Shown in pieces: positions 56,994 through 60,243 of a stretch of DNA of 64,000 nucleotides. The stretch spans positions 930,001-994,000 of the forward strand of contig NC_052484.1 in NCBI RefSeq assembly GCF_009730915.1. The letters are read 5' to 3'. The stretch's first letter is position 1; every line of letters begins with the position of its first letter. A model generated the notes under the pieces. It searched no databases. It was not told the DNA's origin and saw nothing but the letters and a program-made list of their open reading frames with translations. The stretch is from Dioscorea cayenensis subsp. rotundata. Its lineage: Eukaryota; Streptophyta; Magnoliopsida; Dioscoreales; Dioscoreaceae. The translations under genes were made by a program, and so were the position numbers.

Positions 56994-57623
56994 ATTCGTA
57001 GAATGTTCGAATTTGAGCACAGTAATAATTATGGAGCTACAGTGAAGATTAATTAGGGTTAAGTTGGGCAAATTATTTTTAAATTTTTTAAAATTACTGT
57101 AAGTCTAGTAGAAAGAGGGTTAAATGTCGTATCTCACTTTTCACTTTGTTATTATTTATCAGCATAGTGACAGACGTTCGTAGTCTTAGATGATGGATAT
57201 TTATATATATATCTATGTATGTTTATATATTTATGTACCAAAGGGTTTAGTATTAATGATATAAAACAAATGAGTGTGAGATATTTAATGTATAGTATTT
57301 TTATTTGAACCTTATATCATGATCGTAATAAATAATAATGAATAAATTAATCTTAGTTGTCCAATTTTATTTGTATTAGATCTATAATTGAAACACAAAA
57401 AACTTAAACTAAACCAAAATCACAGCTGAACAATCAGGGTACTATGCTCAAACACTATTGAGAGTACTGTTTATGCACCCATCTATTCCTATCTTTTTTA
57501 TCTTTATTCTCCCTCAAAATTTTTTAAATCTAGGGACAAACTCCCCAAGATGATCTTTCCTCTGTATATATATATATATATTTTAAAAAGAAAATAAAGT
57601 TTAGATAAAGAGATATGGCAAAT

Positions 57624-58636
57624 GAGTAGTGATCCCACGGACTCGAGTCCGTGGGATCTAAAGTGCAACCGAGACGTGGCTGTTATTCTTTTGCTTTTTA
57701 TAAAAAACTATTTTTGCCAGTCTCCATGAAGCTTAAACTATAAAAATAATAAATAAAAGGGTATTCCGGACATTTTGCTTTTAACCACACTAATAGCTTA
57801 TTTCCTTTCTCGTTGTTTTTCCTCTTTTTGTTATGCAACTCGGTGAGGCCTGCGGAGAGAAATGGTGGCTGTCGTCGCTGTCGTGGATGTTGGATTGGTT
57901 GAAGCGAATGCCCGAACAGATAAAGCAGGCCAAACGCCGCATGGCCGAGGCTGCAGGCCATGTGACCCACCGCACGAGGAAGCCGGGATAGTCGGTGCAG
58001 TCCAAGGTGCAGGAGTCTGGCCGGTGATCGGAGTAATGTGTTCAACTCTTGGAATAAATGAATGAATGAATAGATAAATAAATAAGTTTCCTTTTTAGAC
58101 TTTTTAGATGATGTGAGATTACTGATGTAAATGGTGATTTTTGTTCCTAGTTAACTTAAGTTGCAGAAAAAGAAAAGAGTTGGAAAGAATGATGAATGGT
58201 TTAATTAAGTTGAAGGAAAAGCAAAGAAAAATAAAGAATGATGAATTGCAAAACCAAGTGTAACGAATGAATCAAATATCTCCCACCATTCACCCTGATA
58301 AACAATAGATATAAAAGTGGACATCACAAGGAACAAATTTCTTATAAACATCAAGACTCAAAAACTCACTCAGTTAATCGGGAAAAATTCATACAAGGAG
58401 AGACTCAACAGAAAAAAACTTAGAAAAAGAAGAAAAAAGAAGACGAAAAGAAAGGGAAAAGAAGTTAATTTGGCAGGGTGGTTAAAAGCAAATGTCCGAA
58501 TACCCTTTGTTTATTATTTTTTTATAATTTAAGCTTCATGGAGCCTGGCAAATATAGTTTTTTATAAAAAGCAAAAGCAGCCACGTCTCGGTTGCGCTTT
58601 AGATCCCACGGACTCGAGTCCGTGGGATCACTACTC
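57624..58636 (+). mobile_element. TIR transposon copy A, palindromic ends, captured gene-like sequence
   Basis: The ends are GAGTAGT followed by a perfect 28-bp palindrome made of GATCCCACGGACTC and its reverse complement (57631-57658 and 58602-58629). Inverted similarity continues inward for about 190 bp (AACCGAGACGTGGCTG, TTTTGCTTTTTATAAAAAAC, GGGTATTCCGGACATTT), so these are long TIRs. The middle at 57838-58050 is GC-rich and protein-like (frame reading LGEACGEKWWLSSLSWMLDW), apparently taken from a host gene. No transposase. The length of the TIRs and a flanking 10-bp repeat shared with copy B suggest a Mutator-type element. Confidence 0.8.
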
Positions 58637-58661
58637 GTGTTATTATTAGGGATGGCCATTT

Positions 58662-59694
58662 GTAGTGATCCCACGGACTCGAGTCCGTGGGATCTAAAAG
58701 CGCATATCGAGATGTGGGTCGCACGCAGCCCACGCCTTTTGCTTTTTATAAAAAACTATATTTGCCAGGCTCCATGAATCTTAAATTATAAAAATAATAA
58801 ACAAAGGGTATTCCGGACATTTGCTTTAACCACACTGCCAAATTAACATCTTCTTTCCCTTTCTTTTCGTCTTCTTCTTTTTCTTCTTTTTTTCTAAGTT
58901 TTTTTTTTTTCTGTTGTGTCTCTCCTTGTATGAATTTTCCTGATTAACTGAGTGAGTTTTGAGTCTTGATGTTTATAAGAAATTTGTTCCTTGTGATGTC
59001 CACTTTATATCTATTGTTTATCAGGGTGAATGGTGGGAGATATTTGATTCATTCGTTACACTTGGTTTTGCAATTCATCATTCTTTATTTTTCTTTGCTT
59101 TTCCTTCAACTTAATTAAACCATTCATCATTCTTTGCAACTCTTTTCTTTTCTGCAACTTAAGTTAACTAGGAACAAAATCACCATTTACATTCCAAGTA
59201 ATCTCACATCATCTAAAAGTCTAAAAAAGGAAACTTATTTATTTATCTATTCATTGATTCATTTATTCCAAGAGTTGAACACATTACTCCGATCACCGCC
59301 GACTCTGCATCTTGACTCGCACCGACCGCCCGGCTTCCTCGCATGGTGGATCGTATGGCTCGCACCGGCCATGCGGCGTTTGGCCTGCTTTATCTGTTCG
59401 GGCATTCGCTTCAACCAATCCAACATCCACGACAGCGACGACAGCCACCGTTTCTCTCCGCACGCCTCACCGAATTGCATAACAAAGAGGAAAAAACAAC
59501 GAGAAAGGGAAATAAGCTATTAGTGTGGTTAAAGCAAATGTCCGAAATACCCTTTATTTATTATTTTTATAGTTTAAGCTTCATGGAGACTGGCAAAAAT
59601 AGTTTTTTATAAAAAGCAAAAGATGTGCTGCTATGCAGCCACGTCTCGGTTGCACTTTAGATCCCACGGACTCGAGTCCGTGGGATCACTACTC
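58662..59694 (-). mobile_element. TIR transposon copy B, inverted relative to copy A
   Basis: Nearly complete reverse complement of copy A: same 28-bp palindromes at its ends (58667-58694 and 59660-59687), same TIRs, and the same GC-rich middle at about 59262-59480, where the minus-strand frame reads KRWLSSLSWMLDWLKRMPEQ. Only 25 bp separate A and B, so the pair forms an almost perfect inverted repeat of about 2.07 kb. Small indels and substitutions distinguish the copies. Confidence 0.8.
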
Positions 59695-59828
59695 ATAATA
59701 ACACTAATGCTAATTGTAAAAACATTTTGATTTCATAATTTTCAATAATAATGTAGTTGATTGTGACAAGTATTAAGGAGAAAGCTCTAAAGAGCCTTAA
59801 CTTAACAGAGAAACTTTAATTATTTTTT

Positions 59829-60243
59829 GGGAGAATTGGTTATAAACCCCTCAAAAATTCTATAATTGCATATTTACCCTTAGAAAAATCATAATTGTAT
59901 ATATACCCCTGAAAAATATAGGTAATTGTGGATATGCCCCTACTGTTAGATTTCGGTAATCAAACTTGATTAACAATAGTTATAACTTGGATTAAGATAT
60001 ACAAAAGGACCAAAATAACTCTGGTACAATTTAAAAAAAACTTTTCAAGGGTATATATGCAATGGTATAATGGTAATTTTATATATTTGTTGTTTGTTAA
60101 TGGATGATTTTTCAACTAAATTGAACTCCAAGGGTATATACGCAATTATGTATATTATTCAAGGGTATGTATGCAATAAACTTTTTTTCATGGGTAAATA
60201 TGCAATTTCAAAATTTTTTAAGGGTACACCAGCAAAAAGCCCT
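59829..60243. mobile_element. Candidate MITE with repeated TIR motifs
   Basis: The left half carries ATTGCATATTTACCCTTAG and TATATATACCCCTGAAAAAT; the right half carries the reverse forms, AAGGGTATATA repeats and GGGTAAATATGCAATTTC. Outer ends match loosely and no target duplication was found. Confidence 0.35.

Follow-up and report, generated by a model that had tools for sequence, protein, structure and literature searches.

Two copies of a transposon-like sequence, each about 1 kb long and lying in opposite orientations 25 bp apart, raise the question of what they are, how they came to be joined, and whether the pair affects the genome that carries it. They lie in a stretch of 64,000 nucleotides from Dioscorea cayenensis subsp. 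rotundata, the whole of which we call the window. Its genes identify a plant host, the neighbours of the pair including a beta-amylase (PF01373) and a ribosomal protein L21e, and, read by eye, the coding sequence of the beta-amylase appears to stop about 1.0 kb before the pair starts.

Identity and cargo of the inverted pair

The first-pass annotation described the two copies, here A and B, as reverse complements 25 bp apart, and the sequence bears this out:

57624-58636, + strand: copy A, a 1013-bp non-autonomous Mutator-like element (Pack-MULE)
58637-58661, no strand: spacer between A and B, 25 bp, GTGTTATTATTAGGGATGGCCATTT, presumably inverted relative to the ancestral site
58662-59694, - strand: copy B, a 1033-bp inverted copy of the Pack-MULE in A, its inner end lacking the terminal GA

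Aligned with A, the reverse complement of B (taken 2 bases too long in this comparison) shows 72 mismatches in 996 ungapped columns and 19 gap events, and the terminal GA of the family's terminal inverted repeat (TIR) is absent from the inner end of B, which corrects the annotation. The two ends of A itself align over about 205 bp at 86%, so long TIRs are present. Beside the pair, at 59846-60225 of the window, lies a further imperfect inverted repeat with 108-nt arms at 75%, with several CAAGGGTATATATGCAAT-like units in and near it; this is probably a MITE-like or foldback element unrelated to the pair.

When the plant's own genome (584 Mb, 2249 contigs) was searched with copy A, at least 85 matches were found (40 of 138 candidates scored), and a 34-base end pattern allowing up to 3 mismatches occurred at 26 forward and 24 reverse sites, with none for the reversed control. 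We compared 33 stretches around family sites, several of which span the same element, and identified, besides this pair and a second one described below, 18 elements with both ends. Target-site duplications were perfect in 10 of these 18 and matched in at least 8 of 9 positions in 14:

Perfect 9-bp duplications: L010, L011, L013, L016, L023, L042, L045
Perfect 10-bp duplications: L014, L017, L040 (in L017, a C followed by a run of T)
8 of 9 positions: L021, L024, L039, L043
Poorer, counting against the flip model below: L019 (7/9), L020 (6/9), L041 (5/9), L044 (5/9)

A single end was found at each of L046-L051, and no family end in L012, L027 or L028. L010 is a solo copy of the Pack-MULE in A and B, 89.5% identical over its full length and flanked by a clean 9-bp duplication. 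A longer relative, L017 (5063 bp), has the same palindromic TIR ends and matches both the MULE transposase (PF10551, 3.8e-30) and FAR1 (PF03101, 1.1e-14) domains in split frames, with a SWIM match slightly below the Pfam cut-off; of the other pieces searched, one of L013 and one of L020 match FAR1, and another of L013 matches nothing. The 8-11-bp duplications that characterise Mutator-like elements (MULEs) are thus found in the family, at B only with the spacer flipped and not at A, and L017 supplies the related longer copy with a MULE transposase. Judged by these ends and domain matches, A and B are Mutator-like elements of a low-copy family with 5-kb members encoding FAR1/MULE transposase.

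Within the copies are two pieces of foreign origin:

57867-58293, + strand (sense): 3' coding part of an oleosin gene with downstream flank in A (A 244-670), 85.6% identical to G000:C5:25268304-25268744
59026-59451, - strand (sense): the same oleosin fragment in B (arm positions 244-669), 84.1%
58295-58428, - strand: 3'-end fragment of an LTR-retrotransposon LTR in A (A 672-805), antisense to A

The parent oleosin gene (C5:25268060) is intact, with a reading frame of 134 aa matching PF01277 at 1.7e-34, and the captured portion comprises its 3' third and downstream flank. The fragment in A matches PF01277 at 5.9e-5 (23.2 bits, slightly below the Pfam cut-off of 25) and has a G+C content of 60% vs 32% for the window; its GC-rich 198 bp occur at seven places in the genome, namely six family members and the parent gene. 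The LTR piece comes from a retrotransposon family seen in L027, L028 and sites on C9, C19 and C82, each of these contigs holding two same-strand matches separated by about 5 kb; its orientation was fixed by the sequence beside the LTR, which we take to be the complement of the primer-binding site. Since the oleosin and LTR pieces have been captured, A and B are Pack-MULEs with two captured pieces, having an identifiable cellular parent gene and no recognised transposase. The two longest open reading frames of A and B (149 and 134 aa) have no Pfam match and run on the strand opposite the captured oleosin, and we judged them to be chance frames rather than genes. In the limited literature searched, no match joined Dioscorea or oleosin with Pack-MULEs, though print may hold more.

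Palindromic ends and a probably flipped spacer

All four ends of the pair carry one perfect 28-bp palindrome, P1 (GATCCCACGGACTCGAGTCCGTGGGATC):

57631-57658, no strand: P1 at the outer end of A, perfect
58602-58629, no strand: P1 at the inner end of A, perfect
58667-58694, no strand: P1 at the inner end of B, perfect
59660-59687, no strand: P1 at the outer end of B, perfect

No other perfect palindrome of 18 bp or longer in the window has a GC content above 50%. P1 starts at base 8 of the element and is perfect in 24 of the 43 ends examined, which belong to elements of 42 bp to more than 5 kb. It differs from the reference at 2.4% of bases vs 18.5% in the next 24, a comparison that ignores indels and is biased by the recognition of ends through P1 itself. 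None of the 29 substitutions in the 43 ends is mirrored in the other arm, and we rejected the idea that P1 is kept as a hairpin structure; conservation seems to act on the sequence and not on its pairing. Exact P1 had no matches in viral contigs or in prokaryote genomes, as expected for a plant element, and among the matches listed for P1 strings in the literature all look unrelated, mostly clinical and veterinary. Intact members have a second short hairpin-like stretch in the TIR, GTGGCTGC-ACA-GCAGCCAC, which has been lost or changed at both ends of A (around 57682-57690 and 58575-58580) and at the inner end of B (around 58705-58735).

P1 equals its reverse complement, so two copies of it are direct and inverted repeats at the same time, and recombination between them could invert or delete the intervening DNA. 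One locus, L045 (C4:3774208-3774249; L045:509-550), consists of 42 bp reading GAGTAGT-P1-ACTACTC, a solo palindrome whose P1 has a single substitution and which is flanked by a perfect 9-bp duplication, ATATTCAAA; it is the sole such sequence in the genome at up to 3 mismatches and lies 3.9 kb from a 365-bp family member, L011. It is possibly the deletion product of recombination between the two P1s of one element, and it could also be a minimal element that transposed.

Three short sequences adjoining the copies bear on the history of the pair:

57614-57623, + strand: TATGGCAAAT, presumed remaining target-site copy of A
58637-58646, - strand: GTGTTATTAT, one copy of the target-site duplication of B, now adjoining A
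59695-59704, + strand: ATAATAACAC, the other copy of the target-site duplication of B

The 10-mer GTGTTATTAT after A and its reverse complement ATAATAACAC after B are where the annotation had placed them, and the sequence occurs once per strand in the whole window. As the pair stands, neither copy is bordered by a direct repeat of at least 5 bp. Inverting the spacer, as had been proposed, does give B a direct 10-bp repeat, with ATAATAACAC on both sides (10/10). The accompanying claim, that CAAATG would then flank A, holds in part: the repeat is present, but it borrows one base from each TIR of A. Outside the TIRs the match is AAAT only, and A has no full 9-10-bp duplication in either orientation. 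If A once had TATGGCAAAT as a 10-bp duplication, the deletion of about 8 bp of it in one step would account both for the weak CAAATG and for the missing GA at the inner TIR of B. When the left flank was searched in the genome, 27 matches were found, of which the two near-full ones were both occupied; no unflipped, single-insert or empty allele was among them.

A second locus and the probable history of the pair

A second pair (copies A2 and B2) lies at C14:1068338-1070412, with the same layout, the same flanks, and a spacer of the same sequence and orientation. Window positions 18708-64000 correspond, with local gaps, to C14:1028130-1074747, and the match continues past the window, positions 994001-1013292 corresponding to 1074748-1094000, where the compared stretch ends. 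The near-identical stretch begins about 20 bases after a 1000-N gap; the first contig (C14:948687-1020280) is bounded by two such gaps, and its last 7 kb were outside the comparison. The second locus is most likely the other haplotype placed beside the first in the scaffold, and a tandem duplication is possible. As the pair has the same layout in a second contig, that layout is confirmed and the flip is probably older than the split between the two loci.

The elements have diverged between loci by more than their flanks have (A and A2 differ at 40 of 1002 positions, B and B2 at 41 of 1021, vs 89 mismatches in the whole 10.2-kb block). Part of this excess comes from indel misalignment and from private changes clustered in B2, which do not explain it in full; the cluster, at C14:1069995-1070186 (L009), lies in the captured oleosin part and is confined to B2. 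Columns private to one copy in a five-sequence alignment of A, B, A2, B2 and L010 number 46 for A, 15 for B, 7 for A2, 28 for B2 and 42 for L010. Many of those in A are one-base length changes, and part of its divergence is probably sequencing error.

The same alignment, summed over windows, retains a trace of exchange between the arms. On the spacer side (columns 421-960), A2 and B2 differ at only 2 of 523 positions and in 6 gap columns, vs 49 of 386 in the outer columns 1-420. This inner near-identity beside outer divergence suggests that the inner halves of the arms were homogenised once they were neighbours, or that B was derived from A with a distinct outer part. The contrast is weaker in the window, where A and B differ at 24 of 511 inner and 42 of 390 outer positions; there a run of identity as long as the observed maximum (129) occurred in 360 of 10,000 random placements, and the differences showed no significant dispersion (1,164 of 10,000). 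B and L010 differ at 22 of 521 inner and 35 of 398 outer positions. At the innermost end, outside the tract of identity, 14 bp missing in A and A2 are kept in B and B2, which counts against exchange. A comparison of the four ends in the window, meant to pair the original ends, was uninformative, three of the four being of one type. Chimerism relative to non-recombined parents may be reflected in the inner half, which is homogenised at the second locus and less so in the window.

We consider it probable that two Pack-MULEs inserted here and later recombined, so that their ends were swapped and the spacer was inverted. In this history, A would probably have been first in, at TATGGCAAAT, with about 8 bp later lost at one junction, and B would have entered next, about 20 bp from A and inverted, creating the 10-bp duplication ATAATAACAC. 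Recombination of the inverted copies would then have swapped their inner ends and inverted the spacer, the crossover lying either within the inner half, where the copies are nearly identical, or within the P1 palindromes at the ends, which are mutual inverted repeats. The spacer of the unflipped pair would read AAATGGCCATCCCTAATAATAACAC, and the empty ancestral site would read ...GATATGGCAAATGGCCATCCCTAATAATAACACTAATGC... The chance of two complete elements lying within 25 bp under independent random insertion is about 2 in 100,000 (about 20 elements in 584 Mb, by after-the-fact arithmetic). Since this is unlikely for independent events, a linked origin is probable, and local transposition of one copy beside the other, for example onto the sister chromatid, appears more likely.

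The annotation had also attributed the flip to recombination between the inverted copies. This is well supported, because a perfect 10-bp duplication appears only when the spacer is flipped, 9-10 bp is the norm of the family, and the arms of the second locus are near-identical only on the spacer side; the part that falls short is the incomplete duplication of A. That incompleteness is also what can be said for two insertions whose ends were never exchanged, the 10-bp match being due to chance: the 6-bp CAAATG of A is weak and A lacks a full duplication in either state. Such a coincidence is very improbable: among 200,000 25-mers picked at random from the window, leaving out any that touched the N gap, only 8 gave a 10/10 duplication in any of four arrangements, and the family's duplication size is 9-10 bp. 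It is scarcely credible that the pair is an assembly artefact in which one insertion was falsely doubled as its reverse complement. The contig does look error-prone, the 10.2-kb block holding the pair showing 89 mismatches and 151 gap openings relative to the second locus and A having its 46 private columns, but an artefact is largely refuted by 23 columns that set A and A2 together apart from B and B2, and by the same layout in a separately assembled second contig.

More probable than these two, though in our view still doubtful, is a local event within the two inner P1s (58602-58629 and 58667-58694) that inverted only the intervening 37 bp, by template switching or by cruciform breakage and rejoining, with no crossover inside the copies. 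Such an event fits the distance of 37 bp between the inner P1s, which are identical and inverted repeats of each other, the presence in the family of the 42-bp solo palindrome expected if P1-P1 recombination within one element loses everything between, and the partial loss of the second hairpin-like TIR stretch at both ends of A. A palindrome event alone, however, leaves unexplained the near-identity of the inner ~540 columns at the second locus. The palindromic ends point to P1-P1 recombination as a specific candidate mechanism for flips and for solo remnants, which can be counted in other genomes.

Hairpin potential and comparison with known systems

Long double-stranded RNA from the pair is physically plausible: the predicted fold of 57624-59694 has an energy of -1625.1 kcal/mol, and 971 of its 981 pairs join A with B. 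Perfect 21-mers in common with the oleosin locus number 54 for A, 47 for B, 54 for A2 and 46 for B2, of which 8, 1, 8 and 0, respectively, fall within the oleosin coding region. The longest run common to A and the oleosin locus (66 nt) lies 215-280 bases past the stop, beyond several AATAAA motifs, and may be outside the oleosin mRNA. Silencing may extend to oleosin, with the 3' flank a readier target than the message. Although A 672-805 has a TATA-like string, we rejected the idea that the LTR piece could be a promoter for hairpin transcription, since it is antisense to A.

Any present effect of the pair is most likely passive, a hairpin that would, if transcribed by read-through, give rise to small RNAs against the family and possibly against the oleosin gene. 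An active RNA-interference locus, transcribed by read-through or from the TIRs, whose long-hairpin small RNAs silence the family and the parental oleosin in trans, seems unlikely. The predicted pairing between the copies and the 21-mers shared with the oleosin locus, including the 66-nt run in A, would suit it, but only 8 of 54 in A and 1 of 47 in B are in the coding region, the 66-nt run is possibly beyond the mRNA, and the antisense LTR provides no inward-pointing promoter. In the excerpted account of Mu killer (PMC3440606), moreover, silencing tracked short antisense transcripts and not read-through ones: effective silencing accompanied the former, and the latter occurred in plants that failed to silence. 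We hold as speculative, and quite unlikely, the broader proposal that recombination between palindrome-ended Pack-MULEs built a transcribed natural hairpin gene that lowers oleosin via small RNAs, in which exchange between the arms would keep the inner stem near-perfect and P1 would prompt both flips and collapse to 42 bp, much as solo LTRs form.

What the locus offers is a compact example, from a plant, of two inverted transposons whose target-site duplications have been exchanged, with a flipped segment of only 25 bp, and one route by which a Pack-MULE could become a candidate hairpin RNA gene with sequence from its parent. Like the Pack-MULEs of rice and other plants, as excerpted from PMC4858842 and PMC3310237, A and B are non-autonomous, about 1 kb long, have long TIRs and belong to a family with 9-10-bp duplications, and carry a GC-rich captured gene fragment with an identifiable parent; unlike those elements as described there, they form an inverted joined pair with exchanged duplications and a perfect 28-bp palindrome near the TIR end. 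Palindromic or foldback termini with Mutator-type duplications are shared with the foldback-type MULEs MuTAnT and FARE (PMC4486113) and Tm1 (PMC3169594), from which, on the portions of those accounts available, the present family is set apart by its 28-bp palindrome from base 8, perfect in 24 of 43 ends, in elements of 42 bp to more than 5 kb.

For the flip, the nearest parallel is with the Galileo inversions of Drosophila buzzatii, where, in the excerpts of PMC2775673, oppositely oriented transposon copies carry exchanged target-site duplications, and such duplications in inverted, chimeric copies are taken as evidence of ectopic recombination. The yam pair likewise has inverted copies and an exchanged duplication for B, that of A being incomplete. 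The flipped segment here is 25 bp in a plant and between Mutator-like elements, whereas that account concerns chromosome inversions and a P-superfamily element, and Galileo has non-inverted chromosomes for comparison where the yam pair has none. For the hairpin, the pair resembles Mu killer of maize as excerpted from PMC3440606, an inverted duplication of Mutator sequence with a potential hairpin RNA, but Mu killer contains transposase sequence and silences MuDR, whereas the yam pair holds an oleosin fragment and no recognised transposase, and silencing by it is hypothetical. Adjacent inverted copies of gene fragments able to form an RNA duplex are also found among the inverted pseudogene pairs of rice in the excerpted PMC2708354, two of which are backed there by small-RNA reads, in contrast to the sequence-based case presented here.
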